From an uncultured Flavobacteriales bacterium (GTDB taxonomy: Bacteria; Bacteroidota; Bacteroidia; Flavobacteriales_G; Salibacteraceae), in NCBI GenBank assembly GCA_913057205.1, contig CAJXNO010000017.1, positions 1 through 56,032 of the forward strand: DNA of 56,032 bases. The letters run 5' to 3'. Below the pieces are notes generated by a model, which saw nothing but the letters and a program-made list of their open reading frames with translations, searched no databases and was not told the DNA's origin. Positions 620 to 15,214 of the stretch are shown piece after piece. A program made the translations under genes and the position numbers. Each line of letters starts with the position of its first letter. Positions within the stretch are counted from its first letter, which is position 1.

Positions 620-2038
620 TTAATTCCCTTTGAATTTCAACATGACTGCAACGGTTTGAGCAATGATGTTGATATCCAATGCAAACGATCGATACTTGAT
701 GTAGTAGAGGTCATACTGCAACTTGATCAGGGCATCCTCGTCCGTATTGCCGTACTTATGCCGTACCTGCGCCCAGCCTGTGATACCGGGCTTCACCAAG
801 TGGCGCGTTTCAAAAAAAGTGATGGTTTGCTTGAGCTGATCCACAAATACCTGTCGTTCAGGACGCGGACCGATCAAATTCATATCCCCTTTCAGCACAT
901 TCCAAAACTGCGGTAGTTCATCAATTCGCGTTTTACGGTAGAATTTACCTGGAAGTGTAATCCGCGGGTCGTTATCTCCAGCCCATACCGCTCCGGTATG
1001 CTTTTCTGCGTCCACCACCATTGTTCTGAACTTGTAGATCGTAAAAGGCTTGTTATCCCTCCCGACGCGTTCTTGCGAATACAGCAATGGTCCACGGCTC
1101 ATGAACAAGTTAAACAACCAAACAAATGGAGTGATCATCAGTAAGCCAGCCACCCCGATGATACCGAAAATGATGTTCAGCAGGCGGTTGACGAAGAGGT
1201 AAACATCGTTCTTCTTCTTGGAATAGTAGTCATAGGTCAATATGAATTCACCGTTCTTTTCTTTCACCATCAGCTTACCTGTAACCGACTCGTAGACCAT
1301 ATTTACCGGTGTAACGGGCACCCCATAACTCTCACAGTCTACCAATCGAGAGTAGAGCGTGCCTTTCACCGACTTAGCCGTATGTGCAGCGAGGATGATC
1401 TCATCGATGTACAAGCGTCGAGCGTACTTGAATAGCATATCACTGTTTCCAAGTACACGTACTCCGTCATAGATCTTGCCATCCTTATCTGGGTCGTCGT
1501 CTATAAAACCAACCACCTCGTAGGCAGTACGGTGATAAACCTCTTCATCTTTCAAGGTTTGAACGATCTCCCTTCCAGACCATCCTGCACCTACTACCAG
1601 TACCCGCTTGGATAAGATCGGGTGACGGAAAAGCCATGCAAAGACCCAATGCCAAAGTGTGAGCAATACCACCACAAGGCCAATGAACACGAAGAAGGGT
1701 AACCGGGACGAAGGAAAGAGTGGACTAAGGAAGGGAATCAACATGTAGGTTGCCGCCGTAGCCATAGCAACCAGTGCTGTTCTGCTGATAAGCACCATGA
1801 TCCTGTTCGCATTGATGGTGCGATACAATCGAAAAGCATTGGAATAGAAAACCCAAACAGCGCACAGCAAGATATACCACCAAGGGTGATCGATCAGTGT
1901 TTTCCTTGGCCAGAGATCGTAGGTGTAGAAATACTTCAGGTACACCAACAAGGCACTGGTCAGCAGCACCAAATCAGAAACTACTAAAAAGTACTTTCTG
2001 ATCACAAATCGAATATCTCTAGTGGCAGGCCTAGGCAC
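620..2038 (-). CDS. Polyprenyl-phosphate sugar-1-phosphate transferase (WbaP/WcaJ-type)
   Basis: A 472-residue protein with the full architecture of exopolysaccharide glycosylphosphotransferases. It has about five N-terminal membrane segments, a Rossmann-like middle part (RVLVVGAGWSGREIV, around residue 145), and a C-terminal bacterial sugar transferase domain. Visible motifs in that domain are QERVGR, YKFRTM, RKTRIDELPQFWNVL, GDMNLIGPRPE and KPGITGWAQV. These enzymes move a sugar-1-phosphate from a UDP-sugar onto undecaprenyl phosphate and so start assembly of a lipid-linked repeat unit at the inner membrane. It lies between a GT4 gene (105-bp gap) and the WbpI-like gene. The sugar used cannot be read from the sequence. 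Confidence 0.93.
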   Translation of the reverse strand: MPRPATRDIRFVIRKYFLVVSDLVLLTSALLVYLKYFYTYDLWPRKTLIDHPWWYILLCAVWVFYSNAFRLYRTINANRIMVLISRTALVAMATAATYMLIPFLSPLFPSSRLPFFVFIGLVVVLLTLWHWVFAWLFRHPILSKRVLVVGAGWSGREIVQTLKDEEVYHRTAYEVVGFIDDDPDKDGKIYDGVRVLGNSDMLFKYARRLYIDEIILAAHTAKSVKGTLYSRLVDCESYGVPVTPVNMVYESVTGKLMVKEKNGEFILTYDYYSKKKNDVYLFVNRLLNIIFGIIGVAGLLMITPFVWLFNLFMSRGPLLYSQERVGRDNKPFTIYKFRTMVVDAEKHTGAVWAGDNDPRITLPGKFYRKTRIDELPQFWNVLKGDMNLIGPRPERQVFVDQLKQTITFFETRHLVKPGITGWAQVRHKYGNTDEDALIKLQYDLYYIKYRSFALDINIIAQTVAVMLKFKGN

Positions 2039-2143: not shown

Positions 2144-3361
2144 TTAAGACGAGGCCTCAGCTTGAATGAACTTAAGAAATGCATCAAACTGACGTTCGTA
2201 ATGGAAGGCTCCTTGAGCCAAGGATCGCATCCGCTGCTTCATCACAATCACTTCTGATGATTCCAGTTGACTAAAACGGTCAAGGGCAGTGCCCAAGGCT
2301 TTCATATCACCGGGCTTTGTGGTAAGACCGATTTGATATTTCTCCACCAAAGCTGCGCCCTCACCCCCGCCCGCAAAGATCATGGGCACTTCCGCGTGAA
2401 TCAGTTCGTAAACCTTAGATGGAACCGCACCATAAATGCGGTTGGTAAGCGGAACCAAGGATGCATCAAAACCCTTGAGAATTGCCAACGCATCCTTCGC
2501 TTCAAAAGCTCCATGAAAGAATATCGACGGCTGAGCTTGCTTTGAGCAGATCGATTTGATCTCTTCTTCCTCCATCCCCTTTCCGAAGATGTGAAACTCC
2601 ATGTTCAAGGCTGCAAAATCAACTGACCTGCATACCGCTGCCAATCCTTGAGCAAAGCCCAACAAACCAGCATAAACGATTCGTCGTTTCGAGCTTTCAA
2701 CATGCCGTTCATTGGCATCTACCTGTTGAAGGTGCTTGGGTAGGTTTCGATAGACGAACTTCGGAGAAGTAGAATTAATCGTTTTGATGTGTGCTATGAT
2801 TTCCTCTGACTGACCGGTGATCTTATCCGCATGTTGATAAATGAATCGCTCCATCCAAAGAAGGACTTTATACATGCGACTCCCCTCTTGCAGCACTCCC
2901 AGTTCCGTTGCCGACATAGGCCAGAGATCTGAAACATTGAGTACAAGTTCTTTCCTAAGTACGCGCTTAACCAAGAACACCGCAGTGAATGAGACGAACA
3001 AGGGCGGACTCTGTACGATGACTTTGTCGATCCTTTTACGTTTTATGAAAGGCAGATAGCAAAGCAGAGCAAAGGCAAAAGACAACATACTGAACACCCG
3101 TAGGATTGGGTTCTTGCTTTTCGATGGATAGATGAACAAGCGGTCAACACGCAAGTGATTGCTCGTTGTCGTATGCTTCATTTGCCCTCGGAAACCTCTG
3201 AATACCCTACCCTCCGGATAATTGGGAAGTGGTGCAATGACGCGGGTTTCTATACCTCGCTCGGTAAACGATTCAACAAGTGATGTAATGCGCCGAGGCG
3301 CCGCTCCCATTTCTGGAGCGAAGTAATTCGAAATGACCAGTATTTGTCGCGCCTCAGGCAT
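2144..3361 (-). CDS. Glycosyltransferase family 4 (WbuB-like)
   Basis: A 405-residue GT-B fold glycosyltransferase. The N-terminus ISNYFAPEMGAAPRRI followed by PLPNYPEGRVFRGF is typical of WbuB-like enzymes of O-antigen and capsule loci. The C-terminal nucleotide-sugar-binding half shows YAGLLGFAQGL, VPSKVYELIHAEVPMIFAG and GEGAALVEKY. It probably adds a sugar to the growing lipid-linked oligosaccharide at the cytoplasmic face. Its start overlaps the end of the upstream epimerase gene by 8 bp, which indicates translational coupling. Donor and acceptor cannot be read from sequence. Confidence 0.9.
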   Translation of the reverse strand: MPEARQILVISNYFAPEMGAAPRRITSLVESFTERGIETRVIAPLPNYPEGRVFRGFRGQMKHTTTSNHLRVDRLFIYPSKSKNPILRVFSMLSFAFALLCYLPFIKRKRIDKVIVQSPPLFVSFTAVFLVKRVLRKELVLNVSDLWPMSATELGVLQEGSRMYKVLLWMERFIYQHADKITGQSEEIIAHIKTINSTSPKFVYRNLPKHLQQVDANERHVESSKRRIVYAGLLGFAQGLAAVCRSVDFAALNMEFHIFGKGMEEEEIKSICSKQAQPSIFFHGAFEAKDALAILKGFDASLVPLTNRIYGAVPSKVYELIHAEVPMIFAGGGEGAALVEKYQIGLTTKPGDMKALGTALDRFSQLESSEVIVMKQRMRSLAQGAFHYERQFDAFLKFIQAEASS

Positions 3362-4490
3362 TCAAGCTATCTAAGACCGCTACGATCCGCTCTGCTGCCT
3401 TACCGTCCCATAGGGCGGGTATCCCCCCTTGCTTCCACTCACCCTTAAACAACTTTTCAAGTGCAGGCCCTACAACACCTAGCGCCGTTCCGAGCAATTC
3501 GTTGGTTCCGATGGTACAGGTCTCCGGACGCTCCGTGTTATTTCGCAATGTCATACAAGGCACACCCATTACCGTAGTTTCTTCTGTGATGCCCCCTGAG
3601 TCGGTAATCACCCCTTTAGATCGCTCAACCAGATAATTGAACTCCAGGTAAGACAAAGGCTCCACCAAGTATAGGTTATCATGTTGAATACCGATTCGCT
3701 CGAACACCTTCTTTGTTCTAGGGTGTATGGGGAAGATGAGCGGCACCGAGCGTGAGTGTTCCACGATCTCTTGGATCAAAGCTTTCAAACTTTGTTCTTC
3801 ATCCACGTTCGCTGGACGATGAAGCGTCAACACCATGTACTCGCCTTCCGTTAAGTCCGCCTCCGCCCAAATGCTTGGCTGAATGAATCTTGAGCGGTTC
3901 TTAAGCAACGTATCGATCATTGTATTGCCTACGAAGTGAATGGCAGACGAGGACACTCCTAAGTGCTCTAGATTCTTCCCAGCATCTTCCGTCGTGGTGA
4001 AAAAATGGTCCGTGATCGCATCGGTTACCATGCGGTTGATCTCCTCCGGCATGGTTAGATCTTTTGATCGTATACCTGCCTCAACATGAGCCACTTGAAT
4101 ATTAAGCTTTTTAGCAGCGATTGAACACGCCATAGTAGAGGTAACATCGCCTACCACTAGGGTAAGGTCGCATGGTTTTTCCAGCAATAATTTCTCGTAG
4201 CGAACCATGATGCGTCCGGTTTGCTCCGCTTGGGTTCCTGAACCGGACTCGAGGTTCACATCGGGTGAAGGGATGTTCAATTGCTGGAAGAAGCTTCCCG
4301 ACATCTTTTCATCGTAGTGTTGACCGGTATGCACCAGTCGATAGCGGAGTTTTCCACCTTTTGCTTGATTATCTTTCAAAGCATGAATGATCGGCGCGAT
4401 CTTCATGAAGTTGGGCCGTGCTCCGGCAATGATGTCGATTAGCAATGTTCCGTGCGATTTTAGTTCGGCAGCAAAACTAAGGTATACCAT
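3354..4490 (-). CDS. wecB: UDP-N-acetylglucosamine 2-epimerase (non-hydrolysing), second paralogue
   Basis: A full-length epimerase of up to 378 residues. Motifs in order are IIAGARPNFMKIAPII, HTGQHYDEKMS, VVGDVTSTMA, VAHVEAGIRS, MPEEINR, LTLHRPANVD, FPIHPRT, DSGGITEE and RNNTERPET. The family interconverts UDP-GlcNAc and UDP-ManNAc (or close analogues). The extra leader MVYLSFAAELKSHG before the usual family start suggests that initiation may be internal, for example at a TTG just ahead of LIDIIAGARP. It differs clearly in sequence from the epimerase at the left edge, so the locus probably makes two different manno-type sugars, or one of the two acts on a uronate derivative. Confidence 0.9.
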   Translation of the reverse strand: MVYLSFAAELKSHGTLLIDIIAGARPNFMKIAPIIHALKDNQAKGGKLRYRLVHTGQHYDEKMSGSFFQQLNIPSPDVNLESGSGTQAEQTGRIMVRYEKLLLEKPCDLTLVVGDVTSTMACSIAAKKLNIQVAHVEAGIRSKDLTMPEEINRMVTDAITDHFFTTTEDAGKNLEHLGVSSSAIHFVGNTMIDTLLKNRSRFIQPSIWAEADLTEGEYMVLTLHRPANVDEEQSLKALIQEIVEHSRSVPLIFPIHPRTKKVFERIGIQHDNLYLVEPLSYLEFNYLVERSKGVITDSGGITEETTVMGVPCMTLRNNTERPETCTIGTNELLGTALGVVGPALEKLFKGEWKQGGIPALWDGKAAERIVAVLDSLNA

Positions 4491-4539: not shown

Positions 4540-5658
4540 TTATCGAGCCAATATCTTCTTGTACATTCTCACCAGTTCTTTGGCTTCTTGATCCCAGCTG
4601 TAATGCTCGATCGCGGCTTTCCTTCCGCGCTCACCCATGGCCTTTGCCGCATCATCATCATCCAACAGTCGTTGAACAGCCTGGGCGATCTCTTTCGGTT
4701 GGAGCGGATCTACAAGTATGCCACAGTCATGTTTCTCTACAATGTCCTTGATCATTCCAAAGTTGGATCCTACCACCGCTAATCCCATTGACATGTATTC
4801 GAGCAATTTTACGGGTAAGGCAGCCACATAACTCGGTGTAGGATGGAGTACCACTAAGCCGATCTTACTTGATAGATAGGTCTCGATCACCTGCGGACGT
4901 GACAGAAAGCCCAAAGCGTTAACCTTAGTCCATGCAGAGCTCGACTTCACACTTTGCTCAAGCTCCTTAGAGGAGAATCTTCCACCTAATTGCAAATCGG
5001 TATTCAAATACGCAAGACTATCCACCATTTGCTTGGCTCCGCGTACCTCCGTGAGGTCTCCCACATAACAGAGTGTGTGCACTCTTTCACTCCAATCCCG
5101 TTCTAGACTATGATCAATGATCGGAAAGTTCTTGATCAAGTAGACCTGGTCATGGATGGTTTTGAAGCGCGCTTCAATCGATTCTACCACCGTGACCAAA
5201 GCATCAAAGCGCTTTGCGATACGATGCTCCAAGGACTTGTAGGCATAAGAGAGCGGTTTTTTCAATAAACCAGGTATCCAGCTCTTGTGTCCGATCTGCT
5301 TGGGCACATCCTCATGGGAGTCAAAGATCACCCTAAACCCTGCCTTCTTCAAAAGATACGCGTGGTATAAGAACTCAGGGTCGTGGAAATGATAGCAATC
5401 CGCCTTCAGCGACTTCGCTACTTCATAGGCTTTCCGGTTAGCCTTTAGGATGCGCGATAGCTTAGAGTTGAATTTAACCGGGACATTGATGATCTCCAAT
5501 CCCTCGTAATCCGAATCTGTTGTTGCAGCATTTACTGCAACCAGCTTTACATCATACCCGGCTTCTGCCAATGAACGACACTCCTTGTGGTAGATACGGG
5601 TATCCTTGACAATGTGTACCGTGGTGATATGACAAACGACCGGCTTTTGAGCGGGCAT
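4540..5658 (-). CDS. Glycosyltransferase family 4
   Basis: A GT-B glycosyltransferase of 372 residues from the ATG at 5658 (MPAQKPVVCHITTVH). An open frame extends further upstream, but it would run into the preceding dehydrogenase gene, and the internal start fits the usual N-terminal beta strand. N-terminal motifs include KDTRIYHKECRSLAEAGYDV and FHDPEFL. The C-terminal half has LEYMSMGLAVVGSNFG, CGILVDP and HYSWDQEAKELVRMY, the common layout of the GT4 donor-binding domain. It presumably adds one residue of the exopolysaccharide repeat unit. It sits 25 bp after the dehydrogenase stop and ahead of wecB in one transcription direction. Confidence 0.9.
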   Translation of the reverse strand: MPAQKPVVCHITTVHIVKDTRIYHKECRSLAEAGYDVKLVAVNAATTDSDYEGLEIINVPVKFNSKLSRILKANRKAYEVAKSLKADCYHFHDPEFLYHAYLLKKAGFRVIFDSHEDVPKQIGHKSWIPGLLKKPLSYAYKSLEHRIAKRFDALVTVVESIEARFKTIHDQVYLIKNFPIIDHSLERDWSERVHTLCYVGDLTEVRGAKQMVDSLAYLNTDLQLGGRFSSKELEQSVKSSSAWTKVNALGFLSRPQVIETYLSSKIGLVVLHPTPSYVAALPVKLLEYMSMGLAVVGSNFGMIKDIVEKHDCGILVDPLQPKEIAQAVQRLLDDDDAAKAMGERGRKAAIEHYSWDQEAKELVRMYKKILAR

Positions 5659-5683
5659 AGACAGGTTTAGACAGCTTGGTTGA

Positions 5684-6712
5684 TCAATGCAGCATCTGTC
5701 GCTGCTTATTGTGGATACGTTCGATGATCTCAACGACCTTCATACCTTCCAATGCATTCGTAGAGATTTGTGACTTACCGGTCAGCACATCTACCACATT
5801 CTCGATCACATAATGATGGTTCGCAGCACTTCCCTTGTACTGACCATAATCATTCGGAGGATTGGATGGAGGTAACTCAGGCATGGTATAGTCTTCAATA
5901 TGGCAGTACTCTACCTTATCCATATACTGACCGCTCACCTTTACCGTACCCTTCTCCCCAATTACAACAATGCTACTTTCAAAGTTCTTATCCCAAATCG
6001 AAGTACTGTAGTTGATCGATCCAAAGCCACCATTCACAAACTCAAACTGCACCAGTCCGGAGTCATCAAATTCGGTAGAATCCTTATGACTGAAGTTGGT
6101 ACTTGTGGCAACGATGTTCTGAATATCACCAAAGAGCCAATACATGATGTCAATGAAGTGACTGAATTGCGTGAATAGCACACCACCATCGAGTTGCTTC
6201 GTGCCTTTCCACCCACCTGCCTGATAGTAACGAGCATCACGATTCCAGTAACAGCTCAATTGAACCATATTGATCTTACCCAAGCGATTCTCCTCCATAA
6301 GACTCTTCAGCCACCGTGAAGATGGGCTGTAACGGTTCTGCTTCACACAAAAAACGTGACGAGAAACTTGGAGCGATTTAAAGATGACGTCTTCACACTC
6401 TTGTCGATTCAAACCCATCGGCTTCTCGATCACGACATGGCTTCGCTTCTCTAGAACCTTGATGGATTGACTCGCATGATAGCCATTCGGTGTACAGATA
6501 TTCACCACATCGCATTGAGGACCATCCTCATTGAATGCCTCGATGGAGTCGAAAACCTGAATGGAAGGATACAATTCTTTCGCGGCCTGAAGTCGATCTG
6601 CATTCGTATCGATAACTGCCTTGAGTTCAGAGTTTTCATTCTCATGCACCATAAGGGCATGCTTCTTTCCAATGTGTCCGAATCCTACTACAGCAAATGA
6701 AATCTTGCTCAT
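5684..6712 (-). CDS. Gfo/Idh/MocA-family nucleotide-sugar oxidoreductase (WlbA/WbpB-like)
   Basis: A 342-residue NAD-dependent oxidoreductase. The N-terminal Rossmann motif is VVGFGHIGKKHA, followed by the catalytic lysine motif EKPMGLNRQE. The C-terminal domain has YWNRDARYY, GWKGTKQLDGGVL and FSHFIDIMYWLFGD. This combination matches WlbA/WbpB, which oxidise C3 of UDP-GlcNAcA on the way to UDP-2,3-diacetamido-uronic acids. Together with two WecB-family epimerases it suggests a diacetamido-mannuronate-type sugar. The partner aminotransferase and acetyltransferase (WlbC/WlbB) are not in the window, so the substrate assignment is an inference. Confidence 0.87.
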   Translation of the reverse strand: MSKISFAVVGFGHIGKKHALMVHENENSELKAVIDTNADRLQAAKELYPSIQVFDSIEAFNEDGPQCDVVNICTPNGYHASQSIKVLEKRSHVVIEKPMGLNRQECEDVIFKSLQVSRHVFCVKQNRYSPSSRWLKSLMEENRLGKINMVQLSCYWNRDARYYQAGGWKGTKQLDGGVLFTQFSHFIDIMYWLFGDIQNIVATSTNFSHKDSTEFDDSGLVQFEFVNGGFGSINYSTSIWDKNFESSIVVIGEKGTVKVSGQYMDKVEYCHIEDYTMPELPPSNPPNDYGQYKGSAANHHYVIENVVDVLTGKSQISTNALEGMKVVEIIERIHNKQRQMLH

Positions 6713-6757: not shown

Positions 6758-8146
6758 TTAAGCCTGCTCTTTTGCTGCATAAGAAAGGATGGCTTCGTAG
6801 AGGTGAGCGTATTGCCCCCAATGCGGGTGGTCTAGGTTCTCCGGATGCCAGAGGTAGACCAATTGTCCGCCGTAGCGTTCGCACATATCCACCACCTGCC
6901 GAGCTGCATTAAGGCCTTCTTCTGCTTTGGGGTATTTGCGGATCAATGCCACTTCCATAACAATCAATGGCTCTTCAATGAGGGAAAGTGTTTTCCTGTT
7001 TTGCAGATCAAACACCCGATAAGGTCGAGCCGTACCACAACGAAACCCAATATCACTCGAAAGCCCCAGGCTGCTGTCTCGTTGGAGCCCTGCTTCCTCC
7101 CACATCTGCCATGTATGCGGGTTTTTGAAGCGAAGGTAGTGCATCCTACCTTCTGAAACTTCCGGAGTGCAAGCGTGAAGGCGAGCCAACTCTTGCTTGA
7201 ATACTTCTTTATCCCAAGCCGAAGCAAAGGATCCATGGACTCCAACCGTATGCCCCCGTTTTTGAATACTATGGATGGTTTCCTGTGCTACACGCGAACG
7301 AATGTCATAGCGCACGTCTTCCTCGCCAGCATGAGACGGAATGAAGTAAAAATGACTTTTCAACCCAAGACTTTCGGAGCGGTCCATAAGCGCATCGAAG
7401 CTGTCATAATTATCTTTTCGCAGTTTCAGTTGAATGGATATAAACTCCCACGTAGTCTTGAATACCAACCAAGGTTTTTTCCTCAAGAGCAGGTCTCCTC
7501 CAATCGCATTGACCCATTTCTTTACCGTATCGAAACGTCGCAGGTGGTCAACATCGTGGGTCACTTTGATGGAGTAAGGATGTTGGTCTTTCACTTTCAG
7601 CCTCAAGAACGTTTCCATGGTCGAAGACAGTCGGTGAAAGAGCATATCCAAGGATGGCATGTAGTGGACACCATGTTGAAGCGCGAGCAACGCTGACTCG
7701 TCAATCCGCCCAAAACGGTCGAGGTGCTTCAAACCGATCTCTTCCCAACGGGTAAGATGGAAGAAGGCATGAGCGAAAACATCACAGCCTAAGGCCAACA
7801 CATCTTCAGATCGTTCGTTCTCCCAAACCGAGCCAAAGAAAGATGGAATACGATCTCCATGCTCATCGATCGGATCGAGCCAATGCAGCTCAGTTGGTAC
7901 TTGCAAATCGCTCCATTCAACTACCTCGGGCAATGAAAAGAAAAATAGGTCTGGAATAACCATTTGCCGCCCAGCGGACGTCAGTATGGTAGATGTTGCA
8001 TCCACCCACTCTACCTCGTAGGTAAGGCCCATCCAGTCATTGAAAAGCACTTGAAACACGTAGTTGCGTTCTGGCTTGTGGTCATGTGGAGCGGATATCT
8101 TGATCAAGTTCGACATCAACTGCGAAAGTCGCACATTCCTTATCAA
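6758..8146 (-). CDS. Polysaccharide deacetylase-like protein (NodB-fold, DUF7033-type N-terminus)
   Basis: A 462-residue cytoplasmic-looking protein with no evident signal peptide. The C-terminal half has the NodB-fold signatures VTHDVDHLRRFD, GHTVGVHGSFAS (metal-binding His region), FKNPHTWQMWEEAG and YLWHPENLDHPHWGQY. The N-terminal half resembles the extension common in Bacteroidota exopolysaccharide-locus deacetylases. An alternative start is the Met at 8116. Such proteins remove or transfer acyl groups on amino sugars, but their exact substrates are mostly unknown. It is the first gene of the leftward sugar operon and is divergent from the wzx gene across 97 bp. Confidence 0.82.
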   Translation of the reverse strand: MIRNVRLSQLMSNLIKISAPHDHKPERNYVFQVLFNDWMGLTYEVEWVDATSTILTSAGRQMVIPDLFFFSLPEVVEWSDLQVPTELHWLDPIDEHGDRIPSFFGSVWENERSEDVLALGCDVFAHAFFHLTRWEEIGLKHLDRFGRIDESALLALQHGVHYMPSLDMLFHRLSSTMETFLRLKVKDQHPYSIKVTHDVDHLRRFDTVKKWVNAIGGDLLLRKKPWLVFKTTWEFISIQLKLRKDNYDSFDALMDRSESLGLKSHFYFIPSHAGEEDVRYDIRSRVAQETIHSIQKRGHTVGVHGSFASAWDKEVFKQELARLHACTPEVSEGRMHYLRFKNPHTWQMWEEAGLQRDSSLGLSSDIGFRCGTARPYRVFDLQNRKTLSLIEEPLIVMEVALIRKYPKAEEGLNAARQVVDMCERYGGQLVYLWHPENLDHPHWGQYAHLYEAILSYAAKEQA

Positions 8147-8243: not shown

Positions 8244-9596
8244 ATGTCCACAAAGGATAACATTGTTAAAAAGGTCAAGCAAAACCGCGAACTACTTAGC
8301 GGTAGTTCAAGACTGATCGTACTGAGGATTGGCGGGATGGCATTAAGCTATCTGTTCACCCTACTTATTTCGCGCTACTACGGCAGCAGTGTTCTCGGAC
8401 TCTTCGCGATGATGAATGTGGTATTGTTGGTGAGTGTACTAATAACGAGAGGTGGGATGGATATCCTTTTCCTGCGTCAGGTATCTGCATCTAAGAGCGA
8501 GACGGACGATGCTACCATACGAACCGTTTACTCAGGAATCGTTACAAAGCAGCTGGTTGTAGGTGCTGTGGTATCTATTGGCTTGTTTTTCATGGCACCC
8601 TGGTTAGCTGAGACCGTTTTTGATACCCCATCGATGTCTACCGTATTCCGCATGGCAGCTCTGGCTGTGATTCCAATGGCGGTGAACACGCTGCATTCAG
8701 AAGGCTTCAGAGCTCGGAAGATGTTATTTCCTTACATCGCCTTGAGCAGAGGTTGGCACTTTGCACTTGCTTCGGTTGGAATTATCATGCTTTGGTTGAC
8801 GGAAACGGAGGACGCTCTCTTTTTCTTCATGATTTACTTTGCGGCAGTTGTTATGACGGCCCTAATCGGAACCCTGCAGTGGAACCGCCCATTGAGTAAT
8901 CGCTTTAGTGGCTTTGATCTAAGCGGATGGAGGTCTACCCTTTCAGCATCTACCCCCATGCTTTTGTCTAGCAGTATGTTCCTTGTGATGAGCTGGACGG
9001 ACACCTTTATGCTGGGTGTGTATGAATCACCGGATCAAGTTGGAGGTTATCACGTTGCCGTCAAGATCAGCAACCTCATCACCATCGTGCTGTTTGGAAT
9101 CAATGGCATTACTGCCCCAAAACTCTCCTCCACTTTTACAGCAGGTGATCGGTCGCTTTTCAAGCAAACCGTAACCAGCTCAGCGTCACTTTCATTTATG
9201 TTGAGTCTTCCAATCATAACTGCGATCATTCTATTCAGAACCCCTTTGATCGCACTCTTCGGTGCAGAGATGATCTTTGCCGGAACCGCCTTAATCCTTT
9301 TATCGATAGGACAATTCATCAACGGCAGCTGCGGATCGGTCATGAACATATTGCAAATGACCCACAATCAGGTCATAGGGCAAAACATCCTATTGTTTGC
9401 CGGAGCATTGAACATCCTCCTGAACTACCTCTTGATACCTCGCTACGGAATTGAGGGAGCAGCCATAGCGACTGCTTGTAGCACAGCTTTTTGGAACATT
9501 GCCAGTGTTATTGCCGTTCGGGTCAAATTGAAGGTATGGTCGATCCCTTTCTCCTACAAATTCATCAGCGGGATACGTCATTTGCTCAACCGATGA
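8244..9596 (+). CDS. wzx: Oligosaccharide flippase family protein (Wzx-like)
   Basis: A 450-residue polytopic membrane protein with roughly 12-14 hydrophobic segments and the MOP-superfamily layout of polysaccharide exporters. It has an N-terminal LRIGGMALSYLFTLLISRYYG segment and repeated Gly/Ala-rich helices such as ILLFAGALNILLNYLLIPRYG near residue 390. Wzx proteins flip undecaprenyl-linked repeat units to the periplasm before Wzy polymerisation. The gene runs opposite to its neighbours and ends only 3 bp from the convergent ATP-grasp gene. Presence of Wzy- and Wzz-like genes nearby supports a Wzx/Wzy-dependent pathway. Confidence 0.87.
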   Translation: MSTKDNIVKKVKQNRELLSGSSRLIVLRIGGMALSYLFTLLISRYYGSSVLGLFAMMNVVLLVSVLITRGGMDILFLRQVSASKSETDDATIRTVYSGIVTKQLVVGAVVSIGLFFMAPWLAETVFDTPSMSTVFRMAALAVIPMAVNTLHSEGFRARKMLFPYIALSRGWHFALASVGIIMLWLTETEDALFFFMIYFAAVVMTALIGTLQWNRPLSNRFSGFDLSGWRSTLSASTPMLLSSSMFLVMSWTDTFMLGVYESPDQVGGYHVAVKISNLITIVLFGINGITAPKLSSTFTAGDRSLFKQTVTSSASLSFMLSLPIITAIILFRTPLIALFGAEMIFAGTALILLSIGQFINGSCGSVMNILQMTHNQVIGQNILLFAGALNILLNYLLIPRYGIEGAAIATACSTAFWNIASVIAVRVKLKVWSIPFSYKFISGIRHLLNR

Positions 9597-9599
9597 GCA

Positions 9600-10772
9600 T
9601 CACTTTCGCTTAAATAGCAACAAACCGAAGCGGATCGGAAAGTCGATCACGAGATGCAGTAAGCCGGGCACCGGGTCACGCTTGTCATAGAAGGCATTTT
9701 CCTCTGCGGTTTTGCTGTCTCGGAGCAGCTCCTTGAGGCTCAATTGATCGTTGAGTAGGAAGTTATGAACGAAATCCTCCAGAAAGAAATGCCAGAAGAT
9801 GCCATTCTTCTTGTTCGCAACCACTCTATCAGGATAGCGGTCATAGGCCGCATCCAGCACTAACTTAGGGAGGTCTACTCCGGCAGGCTGCGAGAGTCCA
9901 TGCCAGCTCCAAGAGCGAGGATTCATCTCTATGATATAGAGTTCGCCTTGGTACTGCTTAAACTCGATTTGAGCAATCCCTGTGAACCCGAGCGATTCTA
10001 CAACTTTAGTACTGTAAGCTACCAGCTTATCATTAGGAACAGCCTCTGCCCAGGCAGCCTGTCCAGCCATCGGCGGGAACTGCCTCACCTTCTTACCGGT
10101 AAAGCACCCCAGCATCCTGCCTTTGTAGGCAGCTACACCGCCGGTATAGAGTTCACTGTCGCCTCCCGGAATGAACTGTTGAATGATAACCTCAATACCA
10201 TCGCGCTGCACTTCCTCCACGAAGGCTTTACCTTCCTGAGGAGTATGACAAATCTTAAGCCGGAAGACCTCCACGGCAATATTCTCCAAAGACCTCCGCT
10301 CGTCTGGCTTGAAAATGATCGGATACTCCACCTGATCGCTGAGGACGTCTTCCATGCGGTAGCGTTGAGGCTGAGGGATACCAATCTTACTACAGAACCC
10401 TGAGAAATTGACCTTATTGGCGATTTGATCCAACATAACCTCTTGCGTCTCAAACAATGGCTCGTAAACCATACCCAATTCATCCCAATGGGTAGATAAG
10501 GTTCGAACATACTCATCGTTCACGGGTAAAATGAAGGTACGTTGCTCCTTACCGTGCCTATCAGCAATCTTGAGTAGTGCTTTTACGAATCCTTGACGGT
10601 TCAAATGCGGACGGGGAACCACGTAGCGATGGTCTACATGTTTCGAGTAGAGTGCCGCCTTTCGCCAAACATGATCAACGGCTACAACGGTGGCACCGGC
10701 TCGACCAAAAGAACGAATCGCAGCTAGACCGTTCCGGTTGCAATCGATAACTACTACAACTGGCTTTTCCAT
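9600..10772 (-). CDS. ATP-grasp domain ligase (COG3919-like)
   Basis: A 390-residue ATP-grasp enzyme. The N-terminal pre-grasp domain begins VVVVIDCNRNGLAAIRSFGR, followed by central ATP-binding elements (YPIIFKPDERRS, VIIQQFIPGGDSELYTGG) and the metal-binding IEFKQYQGELYIIEMNPR with the E-x-N motif near residue 280. ATP-grasp enzymes activate a carboxylate as acyl-phosphate and couple it to an amine or thiol. Homologues of this type occur in surface-polysaccharide loci, where their substrates are mostly unknown. It overlaps the upstream phosphatase gene by 19 bp and is third in a comA-phosphatase-ligase unit. I therefore propose that it couples a ComA-derived carboxylate (sulfolactate) to an amino group; this is an inference. 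Confidence 0.85.
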   Translation of the reverse strand: MEKPVVVVIDCNRNGLAAIRSFGRAGATVVAVDHVWRKAALYSKHVDHRYVVPRPHLNRQGFVKALLKIADRHGKEQRTFILPVNDEYVRTLSTHWDELGMVYEPLFETQEVMLDQIANKVNFSGFCSKIGIPQPQRYRMEDVLSDQVEYPIIFKPDERRSLENIAVEVFRLKICHTPQEGKAFVEEVQRDGIEVIIQQFIPGGDSELYTGGVAAYKGRMLGCFTGKKVRQFPPMAGQAAWAEAVPNDKLVAYSTKVVESLGFTGIAQIEFKQYQGELYIIEMNPRSWSWHGLSQPAGVDLPKLVLDAAYDRYPDRVVANKKNGIFWHFFLEDFVHNFLLNDQLSLKELLRDSKTAEENAFYDKRDPVPGLLHLVIDFPIRFGLLLFKRK

Positions 10773-11293
10773 TCGAGGATCATTCGTTCACCATTACCAA
10801 ACTCCATCCGATTCATGGAATCCAGCGAACCATGGTTGATAAATGCATTTAGCGCTCGTACATAAGCTCCATGACTGATTAAAAGCACTTGATCTACCCC
10901 CCCGTAATGTGCGAGAAATGACTTAATACGTACCTCTAAACGAATCAATTCTGGACCTAACACCGTACTCAATGGATCTGCCTGCCACTTTCCGTTCATC
11001 TCTGCCAACATATCCGCTTTCGGTTGTCCTTCGTATTGCATGAAACTCATTTCTGTCACACGTTCGTCCACGATAAAGTCTTGGTAACCTAGAAGCTCGG
11101 CTGTCTGAACGGCTCTTTTCATCGGACTAACAACTACTTGATCGAAAGAAGCTTCCGCTAGTTGCTCCTTGAGCCTGAGAGCGATACGTTCATTCTCTGC
11201 ATCTTCTTGCAGTAAGGCAATATCCGTATTCCCTTGAAGCAGGCCTCTACGGTTCCAAGGAGTGATCAGATGGCGAATTGCATGGATGGTCAT
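10754..11293 (-). CDS. Histidine phosphatase family protein
   Basis: A 179-residue member of the phosphoglycerate mutase/histidine phosphatase superfamily. The phospho-accepting site is IRHLITPWN near residue 6, where the usual RHG is RHL. Other conserved parts are VVVSPMKRAVQTAELL, VTEMSFMQYEG (acid region) and the second catalytic histidine in LLISHGAYVRALN. These enzymes remove phosphate from small metabolites through a phosphohistidine intermediate. It overlaps comA by 4 bp and the ATP-grasp gene by 19 bp, so the three are almost certainly one operon. It could replace ComB by dephosphorylating phosphosulfolactate; this is an inference from context. Confidence 0.85.
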   Translation of the reverse strand: MTIHAIRHLITPWNRRGLLQGNTDIALLQEDAENERIALRLKEQLAEASFDQVVVSPMKRAVQTAELLGYQDFIVDERVTEMSFMQYEGQPKADMLAEMNGKWQADPLSTVLGPELIRLEVRIKSFLAHYGGVDQVLLISHGAYVRALNAFINHGSLDSMNRMEFGNGERMILEWKSQL

Positions 11294-12033
11294 CCTTCCA
11301 AATGAAAGGTCTCGCTGCGTAATCCATTTCGCTGTGCTTCCAATAACGCGAGGTCAAGCGGATTCACATTCCCAAGATTAACATTGGCACCAACCATATT
11401 GATGAACATCATTTGAACAGAAGTAGACGGAGCTTCGAAGATGAGTCGATCTACATCGGTCTGCTTCATGATATCACTAACCAATCCGGTTCGCATCTCT
11501 CCACTCGGACGATAGATACCAGCCGTTCCGCTGTCTCGACCCTCCGTGATCACATACTCAGCGCCCGCATCCATCAACATGGATATCTCTCGGATCCAAT
11601 CAGATGGTGGCATGATCTTATCCTTATCCTTAGACCCTACTTCAGAGAGTACAGTAAAATCTTTACTAAGCTCTTCCACCAGCCTACATCGCTCATCGAT
11701 ACCAATATCAATGGTGCCACATGATACCTCCAACATAGAGATGTTATTCTGCTGTAAAAAGGTCAAGAAATCGTCAAGCTTTCCTTGGTGGTAGAATTTT
11801 TCAAATAATGTCCCACCGAAGTAGACAGTAACGTTATGAGACTGGTAGAGTGATACCTTTTCTTGAAGATTCGGCAGAATGTAGGCCACGCCAACACCCA
11901 GCTTAGCGATATCAAGAAAATCGCTGTAATCAGCAAGGATCGGTTTCAGTTCGCCTACGCTAAGTCGAGTATCATTCACGGAAGTTATTCCGGTTCTTCG
12001 GGGCTTTTTTGTTCGGGTTGGTAGGTTCAGCAT
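11290..12033 (-). CDS. comA: Phosphosulfolactate synthase (ComA family)
   Basis: The ATG at 12033 gives 247 residues, close to the size of archaeal ComA; an open frame continues upstream to 12105 but adds an atypical hydrophobic leader. Family motifs are seen in order: LDIAKLGVGVAYIL, YFGGTLFEKF, LEVSCGTIDI, VLSEVGSKD, VITEGRDSGTAGIY, LIFEAPSTSVQ and ANVNLGNV. ComA adds sulfite to phosphoenolpyruvate to give (2R)-phospho-3-sulfolactate, a step known from coenzyme M synthesis and from sulfolactate formation in some bacteria. A copy between a polysaccharide polymerase gene and a phosphatase/ligase pair is unexpected and points to a sulfonated product of this locus. Function in this setting is inferred. 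Confidence 0.88.
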   Translation of the reverse strand: MLNLPTRTKKPRRTGITSVNDTRLSVGELKPILADYSDFLDIAKLGVGVAYILPNLQEKVSLYQSHNVTVYFGGTLFEKFYHQGKLDDFLTFLQQNNISMLEVSCGTIDIGIDERCRLVEELSKDFTVLSEVGSKDKDKIMPPSDWIREISMLMDAGAEYVITEGRDSGTAGIYRPSGEMRTGLVSDIMKQTDVDRLIFEAPSTSVQMMFINMVGANVNLGNVNPLDLALLEAQRNGLRSETFHLEG

Positions 12034-12124: not shown

Positions 12125-13429
12125 TCAATGCTCGATGTAACGGTCATCACGAAGATTCGGGTATAAAAACAGGAGCAGCACAGAAAGAGCGAGTCCATGC
12201 GTGATCAATGCAACAATAAACCCGGTATTGATGAAGGTATGAGCAGAAATGAAGATCAAAGGCAAAGCAATCAGCAAGTCCTTTTTACGGGATAACCAAT
12301 CAGCCACCGCATAGAACAGGGAAAGAAACAAAGTAGCAACTGGATAAGCCGCAAACCCAATATTCGCGAATGCATCGGCAAATACATTTCCATTCGCATA
12401 GTTGCCTTCATTGAAGGAGAAGTAGTTATCACCGATAATGTAAGGAAGGTTCTTTTCATATGGGCTGTTTAGGAAAAACTTAAACGGGATATTCTGTGAG
12501 AAGTGATTCAGCTCATGGGTGCTGAAGAAATCACAATAATGGTAGTATATCTGGCTTGGCAATAGGAGTCCCCTACGAATCAAAATCGACGAAAATGGAG
12601 AAAAGTCAAGTCCGAGCATTCGATCATAAACGAATCCCACGGAAATCACCAAGACCATGAGCGTGGCAAAAGCCAACAAAAAACGCTCCCGCACAAAGTA
12701 AAAAGTCAAGTAGATCGCTAAAGTAAATGGCCCTAGCAATAGCGCGCCCTTGTGGCCGCCAAGTGAAAAAAGGTAAAGGGTTAAGGTCAAACTCAGTCCA
12801 AAGAGCAAGATATTTCGGTAACGTAATGCAGTAATCATCAACAATACATTGATCGCATGCACAAACCAATCAAAGAAATACTTCTCGATTCGTCCTGCAT
12901 TCGCATGAAATACCTCGCGCTGGTCATAGACGGTTGCTACAGTCGGGAGAGACAACTTGAATCCAAAGCTTGATATCAGTCCTATAACTAAAAGTGCAAC
13001 AAGGCCTCCAAAAATGAAAATGAATGCTCTTCGATTAAGCGCAACAAACCTGAGCCCCTTGCTCAGGCTTAATACGTCTCGCAAAAACGGTGTTGTGAGG
13101 AAAGCGGCAAGAAGTCCGAAAAAGAAAACGACTTGATGTCCCTCATTCAATTCAGCATAAACGGATGCTGGTACCATACAGAACAAAAAGAGAAAGCCAT
13201 GCAGTGCTGTACTTGCCTTTTTGACCTGAACCGGGGTAAAAAAGGCCACCGTCAGTAAAGAGAGCCAAATCAAGAAGCGGTCACCAGCCATTCGAGGATT
13301 CAAGATCAGGCCATAGTAATCGAAATAGTTGCTAAGCTGTACATAGAAGCCGTTAAGCAACAGCTTATAAAGCGTCACAAGCAAGACAAAAAATATCCGA
13401 AACCGTATATCGGTAGCCTTCAGGAGCAC
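12125..13429 (-). CDS. Polysaccharide polymerase-like integral membrane protein (Wzy-like)
   Basis: A 434-residue protein with about ten to twelve hydrophobic segments and a larger extracytoplasmic loop in the C-terminal third (around residues 290-360, including DNYFSFNEGNYANGNVFADA). Size, topology and position beside Wzx- and Wzz-type genes fit a Wzy O-antigen/exopolysaccharide polymerase, which joins repeat units in the periplasm. Wzy sequences diverge so much that the assignment rests on topology and context, not on a diagnostic motif. comA follows in the same direction after about 90 bp. The 69-bp gap to the plus-strand wzz-like gene is a divergent promoter region. Confidence 0.7.
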   Translation of the reverse strand: MLLKATDIRFRIFFVLLVTLYKLLLNGFYVQLSNYFDYYGLILNPRMAGDRFLIWLSLLTVAFFTPVQVKKASTALHGFLFLFCMVPASVYAELNEGHQVVFFFGLLAAFLTTPFLRDVLSLSKGLRFVALNRRAFIFIFGGLVALLVIGLISSFGFKLSLPTVATVYDQREVFHANAGRIEKYFFDWFVHAINVLLMITALRYRNILLFGLSLTLTLYLFSLGGHKGALLLGPFTLAIYLTFYFVRERFLLAFATLMVLVISVGFVYDRMLGLDFSPFSSILIRRGLLLPSQIYYHYCDFFSTHELNHFSQNIPFKFFLNSPYEKNLPYIIGDNYFSFNEGNYANGNVFADAFANIGFAAYPVATLFLSLFYAVADWLSRKKDLLIALPLIFISAHTFINTGFIVALITHGLALSVLLLFLYPNLRDDRYIEH

Positions 13430-13498: not shown

Positions 13499-14269
13499 AT
13501 GAGCACCTCTGACAACATTAACCTAAAAGATATCCTGAGCTTTATTTTCGGTAAGAAGCTATTGATTCTCGGGTTTGCTATGGTCGTTGCACTTGCAACG
13601 TGGATCTATGGAACGAATACCACCCCTTATTACGAACAAAGCTTTTCCGTCTACAGCACCTTATTAACTAGCAAAGAAATCGGTCCATTTCTGGATAGCT
13701 TTGAGGAAGTGGTAAACACACCATCAAAGTACAACAACAAAGAAGATCAGTATCTATCGGATGAGGCCAACTACGCACTCTCCAAGCTGAGCTTTGGTTC
13801 ATTGAGTTTTGATCAAGGTTTTTTCTCTTGTTCAGTAAAGCTGGTTACTTATGATCCCAGCTATACAGAAGAAATTGTGCAAGGCTTAGTTCAATACTTG
13901 AATGATAACCCCTACTTACAAAAACGTTTTGACTTGAAAGAGGAAGAGCTCAAATACCTCATCGCTGAAAGCGCATCAGAAATTGAAGAATTGAAAGTGT
14001 TCAAGCAAGTGCATTTAGACGACAATACTTCAAAAGCTCGTGTGGTGAACTACCCTATCAACCTAAATTCGGAATTGCTTCTCCTACAAGAGAGCTATGC
14101 TAGATATAAGCAACAATTGGAATTACTGGAGCTGATTCAAGTATTGGATTCCCCTGTAACGCCAATTGTACCTAGCGGTCCTAATCCTACACAGAACACT
14201 ATTCTTGCTTTCATTGGGGCTTGTTTGTTCGGCGTATTCCTAGCGTTCGCCTACAAACTCTTCTTCTAG
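13499..14269 (+). CDS. Wzz-like chain-length determinant protein
   Basis: A 256-residue protein with one membrane helix near each end (KKLLILGFAMVVALATWIYG near residue 15; NTILAFIGACLFGVFLAFAY near residue 232). Between them is a periplasmic region with helical, coiled-coil-like character (KEEELKYLIAESASEIEELK). A conserved proline-rich patch (LDSPVTPIVPSGPN) precedes the second helix. This is the layout of Wzz/PCP proteins, which control polymer length with Wzy. It is shorter than many Wzz proteins and has no kinase domain. It is divergent from wzy and ends about 10 bp from a convergent broken epimerase. Confidence 0.72.
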   Translation: MSTSDNINLKDILSFIFGKKLLILGFAMVVALATWIYGTNTTPYYEQSFSVYSTLLTSKEIGPFLDSFEEVVNTPSKYNNKEDQYLSDEANYALSKLSFGSLSFDQGFFSCSVKLVTYDPSYTEEIVQGLVQYLNDNPYLQKRFDLKEEELKYLIAESASEIEELKVFKQVHLDDNTSKARVVNYPINLNSELLLLQESYARYKQQLELLELIQVLDSPVTPIVPSGPNPTQNTILAFIGACLFGVFLAFAYKLFF

Positions 14270-14279
14270 CGCAGCACTC

Positions 14280-15214
14280 TTTATTCAACCGCCCCCAATA
14301 CCACTCTAAGGTCTCCGCCTTGACAAGGGAGACCAGGCTGTGACGAACATCACCTACGCGTTCTGGACCGTAGTTGATCTCAACCTCTGCGATCTTCGGA
14401 TCGAAGGCCGAGAGCTGCGCTTGAAGCAACTCTACCAATTCATTCAAATTGGTGCTCTTACCTTACGCTACGTTGTACACTTCGTTCGTGGCCACTGGAT
14501 TGGTCGTAAGCAAAGCGATGTGGTTCGCGTGGATCACATTCTTGATGTACGTGAAATCCCTCGACTGTGTGCCGTCGCCATGTATGGTCGGAGATTCATG
14601 TGCAATGAAGTGCTGAATGAAACGAGGAACCGCTGCGGCATACGCCCCCTGCGGGTCTTGGCGTCTTCCGAAGACATTGAAATACCGCAGACCGATGGTC
14701 TCCATTTCATAAATGGTCGCCAAAAACTTTGGCGTACATCTCGTTGACCGATTTACTGACCGCATACGGCAACAACGGCTTGCCGATTTTGGCCTCCACC
14801 TTTGGGAGGCGCTGCTCATCGCCGTAAACACTGCTGCTGGTGGCGTAAAGGAAGCGTTTCACTCCCTCCTCTTTCGCTGCTTGAAGCATATTGAGGAAGC
14901 CTCCAACGTTCACCGCATTGGTAGCCACACGGTCTTCAATGGACCGCGGAACCGACCCCAGTGCTGCCTGGTGAAGAACGTAGTCCCCCCCTGCACGGCT
15001 GCTTTACAGGCTTCCTTGTCGCAGATATCACCTTCAATGAAGGTGAAGTGTTTGTGTTGGGCAAAGCCCCTGAAGTTCTCTTGGAAGCCGGTGCTAAAGT
15101 TATCCAATCCCACCACCTCATTGTCATACCCAAGAGGTTTTCCACCAAATTTGAGCCGATGAAACCAGCGGCTCCGGTAACGAGAATGCGTTTTCCTGTT
15201 ACAATCCGCTCCAT
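14280..15214 (-). pseudogene. Frameshifted UDP-sugar 4-epimerase (WbpP/Gne-like SDR)
   Basis: Pieces of one extended-SDR epimerase are spread over several minus-strand frames. They are [20 protein letters not shown] from 15214, then [18 protein letters not shown], then [19 protein letters not shown] with SSSVYGDE, then METIGLRYFNVFGRRQDPQG, and last LNELVELL with ERVGDVRHSL. I count a 1-nt loss near 15128 at a G run, a 1-nt loss in a G run near 14990, an extra C near 14716, and an in-frame TAA near 14464 after VYNVA. The C-terminus also looks shortened. Intact relatives interconvert UDP-GlcNAc/GlcNAcA and the galacto epimers. Three lesions lie in short homopolymers, so sequencing error must be excluded, but the TAA is a substitution. 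Confidence 0.78.

Follow-up and report, generated by a model that had tools for sequence, protein, structure and literature searches.

The window analysed here is a stretch of 56,032 nucleotides, contig C17 of the genome of a marine Flavobacteriales bacterium (Bacteroidota) of 2.83 Mb (completeness 99.94%). Our subject is three overlapping genes within it, called the trio below, which encode a phosphosulfolactate synthase-family protein (ComA), a histidine phosphatase and an ATP-grasp ligase, and which probably serve to make sulfolactate and attach it to a glycan. A preliminary description of the window had placed three overlapping genes between a Wzy-like gene and a Wzx gene, and the open reading frames (ORFs), the overlaps and the family matches all bore this out. 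The three ORFs are intact and lie on the minus strand; comA and the phosphatase gene overlap by 4 bp, the phosphatase and ATP-grasp genes by 19 bp, and the flanks are formed by a Wzx-type flippase gene and the Wzy-like gene. The trio comA is the sole ComA gene in the window genome (G000). The trio and the neighbours closest to it are as follows.

6758-8146, minus strand: DUF7033/VimE-like N-deacetylase (PF23019; THDVDH motif), proposed to free the acceptor amine
8244-9596, plus strand: Wzx-type flippase (PF13440 (Polysacc_synt_3), PF01943, PF01554)
9600-10772, minus strand: ATP-grasp ligase, 390 residues, proposed sulfolactate-amine ligase (PF15632, PF02655, fold, conserved position)
10754-11293, minus strand: histidine phosphatase of the RHL(P)T subgroup, 179 residues, proposed phosphosulfolactate phosphatase (PF00300, catalytic residues, overlap with comA)
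11290-12033, minus strand: comA, phosphosulfolactate synthase family protein, 247 residues (PF02679, fold, conserved residues)
12125-13429, minus strand: Wzy-like polytopic protein, 434 residues, with about 9 hydrophobic segments and no family match

ComA matched PF02679 over its full length (residues 6-240) with 255.1 bits against a cut-off of 25.2. The closest solved structures are those of Methanocaldococcus jannaschii ComA (1qwg) and Bacillus subtilis YitD (1u83), to which an AlphaFold model with a mean predicted local distance difference test score (pLDDT) of 75.5 aligned with template-modelling scores of 0.84 and 0.81, respectively. The protein has nearly all residues that are invariant in five reference ComAs, including K135, E131, E164, R166, E200 and R239, and all their invariant glycine and charged positions except for E171D; the one further change is S49A. 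In a 44-row tree, the ComAs linked to a histidine phosphatase formed a single clade of 22 members (support 100/99) that excluded YitD, the ordinary Bacteroidota ComAs and the coenzyme M (CoM)-type enzymes. A histidine phosphatase gene lies near 35 of the 36 distinct clade loci, two same-genome pairs each being counted once, versus none of 122 other ComA loci. Since the trio also recurs in two congeners and in one member of a different class, its arrangement is beyond chance. The ordinary Bacteroidota ComA (L080, L081 and similar loci) has no phosphatase nearby and is followed by aroE in some genomes. Some Bacteroidota carry a very divergent second ComA with 27-30% identity (L075 6525-7358; G323:C7:77815-78564; G385:C56:4324-5076).

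The trio phosphatase belongs to branch 1 of its superfamily (PF00300, His_Phos_1, 88.1 bits, cut-off 21.7). Across 35 homologues R7, H8, R60, E81 and H141 are invariant, and RHL replaces the usual RHG in 34 of the 35 clade-linked proteins, 31 of them reading RHLPT. We considered whether the protein is itself a ComB and rejected this, as it matched only PF00300, not PF04029, and is of a different fold family; it may nevertheless act like ComB without being a member of that family. ComB (PF04029) is absent from the window genome, from the two trio-bearing congeners (G017 and G020) and from G483, G484 and G485. The Bacteroidota bacterium of another class, G327, has a ComB and also a second, ordinary ComA.

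The clade extends to the Bacillales. A scan of named genomes gave three more close ComAs, each with a phosphatase gene near it, and Calidifontibacillus oryziterrae has an operon of comA, phosphatase and cysH. Clade ComAs, assigned by score, occur in 31 of 299 genomes of its order. Among the 30 Bacillales loci fetched, a phosphatase gene was nearby in 29 and cysH in 27, and a conserved major facilitator superfamily transporter gene usually adjoins as well. In B. subtilis spores sulfolactate makes up 5% of the dry weight, and the functions of yitCD and yitBA-yisZ in its synthesis have been inferred (PMC517825). Like the clade cassettes, the yit operons bring together ComA, a phosphatase and sulfate-to-sulfite enzymes, and the Bacillales comA-phosphatase-cysH operon matches them with ComB replaced. 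B. subtilis differs in that ComB (YitC) is its phosphatase, YitD lies outside the clade and no carboxylate-activating enzyme is part of the spore operons; the window locus differs from them in its lack of CysH, its extra ATP-grasp ligase and its glycan setting. Because of the Bacillales operons, the lack of ComB in most host genomes searched and the residues shared with characterised ComAs, synthesis of sulfolactate with the histidine phosphatase as a stand-in for ComB is a well-supported prediction, as is the ComB-like role that the preliminary description had given to the phosphatase.

We then considered where the sulfite would come from. The window genome encodes CysD, CysN and CysC on C29 and CysH on C1, and no sulfite reductase of the NIR_SIR family was found in it. 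Because CysDNC and CysH are present and NIR_SIR is absent, sulfate could be converted to sulfite but not, by that family, further to sulfide, and ComA is a candidate sink for the sulfite. In G327 the supply is part of the cassette itself: comA, phosphatase, ATP-grasp, cysH and a short-chain dehydrogenase/reductase (SDR) gene follow in one run with junctions of -4, -4, 30 and 9 bp. The CysH there, a phosphoadenylyl sulfate reductase with an ECGLH motif, begins 30 bp after the ATP-grasp gene and is 47% identical to the CysH of the window genome, and a homologous SDR gene follows both. CysH overlaps or abuts an SDR epimerase-like gene in G000:C1 (L172 9356-10962) and in L070 6665-8233, a pair conserved between the window genome and G327 with identities of 47% and 39%. 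The SDR protein as a UDP-sulfoquinovose synthase was unsupported, with equivalog scores of 49-53 bits against a cut-off of 575.

Distribution of the trio among Bacteroidota bears on the role of the ATP-grasp ligase. The genomes compared are partly metagenome-assembled genomes (MAGs), and genes outside the window were called with a simple ORF picker. Within the genus, the trio is present in G017 and G020, and no ComA was seen in ten other members. The trio loci differ between genus members: the G020 trio is surrounded by a different Wzx gene, sulfotransferase genes and a DUF7033 gene that overlaps the ATP-grasp gene by 4 bp, and DUF7033 homologues adjoin the trio in both congeners. The cassette of G327 adjoins Wzx, a DegT aminotransferase and a sulfotransferase. 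Thus the co-occurrence of the trio with glycan loci, set beforehand as a test, was confirmed in four Bacteroidota species. A homologue of the trio ATP-grasp ligase sits at the same position in G017, G020 and G327, and in all four species its gene is translationally coupled to the phosphatase gene or abuts it while the remaining locus varies. In a 395-genome sample of the phylum, matches to this ligase above 200 bits occurred only in the window genome and G327, both next to ComA; in the family of G327, 1 of 92 genomes had it. Because the trio is so sporadic (1 of 92 and 2 of 395), horizontal transfer is suggested. More distant relatives of the ligase (25-28% identity) occur in other Bacteroidota without a nearby ComA, and the two whose surroundings were read, in G111 and G197, lie in glycan loci; a gene for a ligase of this kind adjoining both ComA and the phosphatase was seen in the trio genomes only. 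At L023 10693-13346, divergent from the G020 trio, a 472-residue protein without a family match is followed by a pyridoxal phosphate (PLP)-dependent decarboxylase.

Viral contigs held no relative of the trio ComA. Plasmid ComAs (28-40% identity) were rejected as the same system, the three contexts read being CoM-type or ComA-ComB. On a Legionella lytica plasmid (L222 3847-7475) ComA is part of a 970-residue fusion protein followed by ComB, with an aminotransferase gene adjacent. On a plasmid of the methanotroph Methylocystis iwaonis (L223 5977-11547) it stands with lyase and PLP-enzyme genes, as in bacterial coenzyme M synthesis.

Outside the Bacteroidota, the comA-phosphatase pair was found with other carboxylate-activating enzymes. 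In the Bacillales genome G1240, pseG and pseI enclose comA, phosphatase and ATP-grasp genes with overlaps of 4 and 7 bp, inside an island that spans from flagellin to FliD and has two MptE-like (Maf-type) genes upstream. PseB, PseC, PseG and PseI of this island scored above their NCBIfam equivalog cut-offs and the cytidylyltransferase fits PseF, while the island lacks the acetyltransferase PseH. Read most simply, the cassette takes the place of PseH: the 4-amino group of the UDP-sugar would receive a sulfolactoyl group instead of the acetyl group that PseH adds. The association with glycan loci thus recurs in a pseudaminic-acid island, with a different ATP-grasp ligase, one that is not recognisably close to that of the window and has PylC-like and L-amino acid ligase domains. 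A Verrucomicrobiales MAG (locus L078) has, in order, comA, phosphatase, an AMP-binding ligase, a carrier protein with a DSL motif and an MBOAT protein (DltB-like, 147 bits). A Rhodospirillales MAG (locus L077) has comA, an AMP-binding ligase, phosphatase, a B12-radical S-adenosylmethionine (SAM) protein, a carrier protein and an SGNH-like protein, close to NeuB and aminotransferase genes. The B12-binding radical SAM protein lies inside that operon (L077 12773-14494) and might methylate the sulfolactate moiety. Besides L078 and L077, no close clade member was found in 289 Verrucomicrobiota and 398 Pseudomonadota genomes; the module is rare and sporadic in both phyla.

Every glycan-linked version stands beside a gene that would produce an amine, namely the DUF7033 deacetylase gene in the window, G017 and G020, and aminotransferase genes in G327, G1240, L077 and L078. 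Because of these neighbours, a sugar amine is the probable acceptor. The DUF7033 protein of the window is homologous to VimE and scored 125 bits against the VimE deacetylase model NF053580, short of the cut-off of 440, so it is to be called VimE-like only. In the linking-sugar pathway of Porphyromonas gingivalis, VimE and VimA carry out deacetylation followed by N-acylation with a small acid (PMC7468200). The likeness is that a VimE-like deacetylase would free the sugar amine and a small acid would then acylate it; VimA, a GNAT-like enzyme, transfers serine or glycine, whereas our proposal for the window has an ATP-grasp ligase and sulfolactate.

What the data establish is the identity of the genes, their conserved residues, their co-occurrence and translational coupling, and the genome context; from these we infer each of the reactions, which sugar is the acceptor and where the product ends up. 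The sulfite would be made by CysD/N/C and CysH, whose genes lie outside the locus. ComA would add it to phosphoenolpyruvate, and from the resulting phosphosulfolactate the RHL-type phosphatase, in place of the unrelated ComB, would release sulfolactate. The ComA and phosphatase steps are well supported by context and would follow the B. subtilis scheme. The ATP-grasp ligase would then convert the carboxylate of sulfolactate to an acyl phosphate and form an amide with the amino group of a sugar precursor of the locus, which in the window genus is most likely freed by the DUF7033/VimE-like deacetylase. Wzx would flip the N-sulfolactoyl sugar, and polymerisation would come next; in L078, O-acylation by the MBOAT protein is expected instead. 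We give this reading, in which the trio is a sulfolactate synthesis-and-attachment cassette whose N-sulfolactoyl sugar is flipped by Wzx and polymerised, a probability of about 0.62. Carriage of non-homologous activators at the equivalent place, seen repeatedly, supports carboxylate activation. The preliminary description had the ligase couple sulfolactate to an amino sugar; the amine-producing neighbours and the alternative activators speak for that coupling, but sulfolactate and an amino sugar as the substrates of the ligase we infer from gene context only.

We see roughly even odds for a broader reading, in which comA, the RHL-type phosphatase and an interchangeable activator form a mobile module that has entered, on independent occasions, loci for capsule or exopolysaccharide, for nonulosonic acids and for flagellin glycans, and that places N- or O-sulfolactoyl groups, and with them sulfonates, on surface glycans. 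Its activators would be either of two unrelated ATP-grasp ligases, or an adenylating ligase with a carrier protein and an MBOAT protein.

The trio ATP-grasp ligase matched PF15632 with 29.8 bits and PF02655 with 25.6 bits, both barely above their cut-offs, and a Foldseek search placed its model among ATP-grasp folds, such as those of 2pn1, PylC and L-amino acid ligases. Several observations weigh against the proposed cassette. The model of the ligase has moderate confidence (mean pLDDT 69.8), and the sequence does not reveal the substrate, the family being broad and present in many glycan loci without ComA. ComA reached 199.9 bits of the 280 demanded by TIGR03849, an archaeal equivalog, which does not exclude membership in the family since that model is built on archaeal enzymes, and S49A and E171D (M. 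jannaschii numbering) are clade-wide changes at reference-invariant sites. CysH is not within the window locus, and congeners without ComA likewise lack the sulfite reductase, so that its absence characterises the genus rather than the trio; because it is common to these congeners, the absence permits the model and does not prove it.

The alternative that survives best, though we consider it unlikely, is that the sulfolactate made by ComA and the phosphatase stays free, either as a solute or as an excreted product, and that the ATP-grasp ligase does some unrelated work for the polysaccharide, the shared locus being due to chance or co-transfer. Spores of B. subtilis are known to contain free sulfolactate (PMC517825), and most Bacillales clade members have no ligase nearby; yet in four of four Bacteroidota species the ATP-grasp gene is coupled to the phosphatase gene or abuts it despite differing loci, and three other lineages have different carboxylate-activating enzymes at the equivalent place. 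Slightly less probable still is that the acceptor of sulfolactate is not a sugar but a small amine such as an amino acid, the ligase then making a conjugate that either stays free or is attached later as a building block. The fold relatives of the ligase, among them L-amino acid ligases and PylC, and the L-amino acid ligase C-terminal domain of the Bacillales version would fit this, but each glycan-linked version adjoins a gene expected to yield a free sugar amine, and the G1240 cassette occupies the gap of the sugar N-acetyltransferase PseH, which is missing from the island. The two clade-specific changes in ComA could also mean that the enzyme uses another nucleophile or yields a different phosphorylated acid, so that the product is not a sulfonate; we regard this as improbable, given CysH beside 27 of 30 Bacillales clade members and in the G327 cassette and the other conserved residues common to the clade and characterised ComAs. 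Sulfonolipids occur in Bacteroidota, and sulfolactate could feed their synthesis or that of cysteate rather than a glycan, but in every locus read the cassette stands among glycan genes and without a gene for lipid synthesis, and this is the most remote of the alternatives.

The proposed cassette resembles several known systems in part. Coenzyme M biosynthesis (ComA-ComB-ComC-ComDE, and the bacterial Xcb version) has its first step carried out by the same enzyme family; the window genome lacks ComB, the locus, where alone they were searched for, lacks ComC and ComDE, and the trio is set among glycan genes. The CoM-type ComAs of bacteria (Xanthobacter, Methylocystis) occur with lyase and PLP-enzyme genes and branch elsewhere. 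The pseudaminic acid pathway (PseB-C-H-G-I-F) hosts the G1240 version, whereas the locus in the window does not belong to that pathway. In Dlt D-alanylation, DltA adenylates, DltC is the carrier and DltB the MBOAT protein, and L078 has the corresponding ligase, carrier and MBOAT protein after comA and phosphatase; the Dlt cargo is D-alanine, in contrast to the sulfolactate proposed for L078, and the window version uses an ATP-grasp ligase.

Glycans decorated with acyl groups are already known, as are ComA and ATP-grasp ligases. The open-access literature, with subscription journals outside the coverage, yielded no description of a sulfolactate substituent on a glycan, of sulfolactyl or sulfolactoyl groups, of sulfolactate together with an ATP-grasp enzyme, of an RHL phosphatase as a ComB replacement or of an exchangeable cassette, and none of a system with this gene set, in agreement with the preliminary description. 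Together these data point to an undescribed route to a permanent negative charge on bacterial surface glycans. The known anionic charges of glycans are uronic acids, pyruvate ketals, phosphates, sulfate esters and nonulosonic acids; a sulfonate held by a stable amide and built from phosphoenolpyruvate and sulfite would offer a strongly acidic alternative that resists hydrolysis. If true, this would give a widespread, so far unassigned ComA clade a function, and the replacement of ComB would explain sulfolactate operons without it. It would also link sulfate assimilation without sulfite reductase to surface chemistry, add a source of marine organosulfonates and predict sulfonated pseudaminic acid on flagella. 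An N-sulfolactoyl group would shift the mass of an amine by 151.978 Da, 109.967 Da above N-acetyl.

The rest of the locus is made up of the following features.

620-2038, minus strand: probable initiating sugar-phosphate transferase, read from the translation, with a conserved C-terminal motif that we take to be that of such enzymes
2144-3361, minus strand: WcaI-like glycosyltransferase (NCBIfam PRK10307, 95 bits, under the cut-off)
3354-4490, minus strand: non-hydrolysing UDP-GlcNAc 2-epimerase, WecB (TIGR00236, 306 bits, above the cut-off)
4540-5733, minus strand: GT4 glycosyltransferase (PF00534)
5684-6712, minus strand: Gfo/Idh/MocA sugar oxidoreductase (PF01408, PF22725, PF02894), with a 78% identical homologue in the G017 locus
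13499-14269, plus strand: Wzz-like chain-length determinant (PF02706, 22.4 bits, under the cut-off of 25.5), with a 28% identical homologue in the G017 locus

The label Wzy-like is based on topology, on position and on a 39% identical homologue at the same place in G017. At 14286-15214 of the window, on the minus strand, lies the relic of an SDR sugar epimerase gene, broken by stops and a frame change, which is either a decayed gene or an assembly error; it shares 45% identity with an intact gene at L022 15660-16649.

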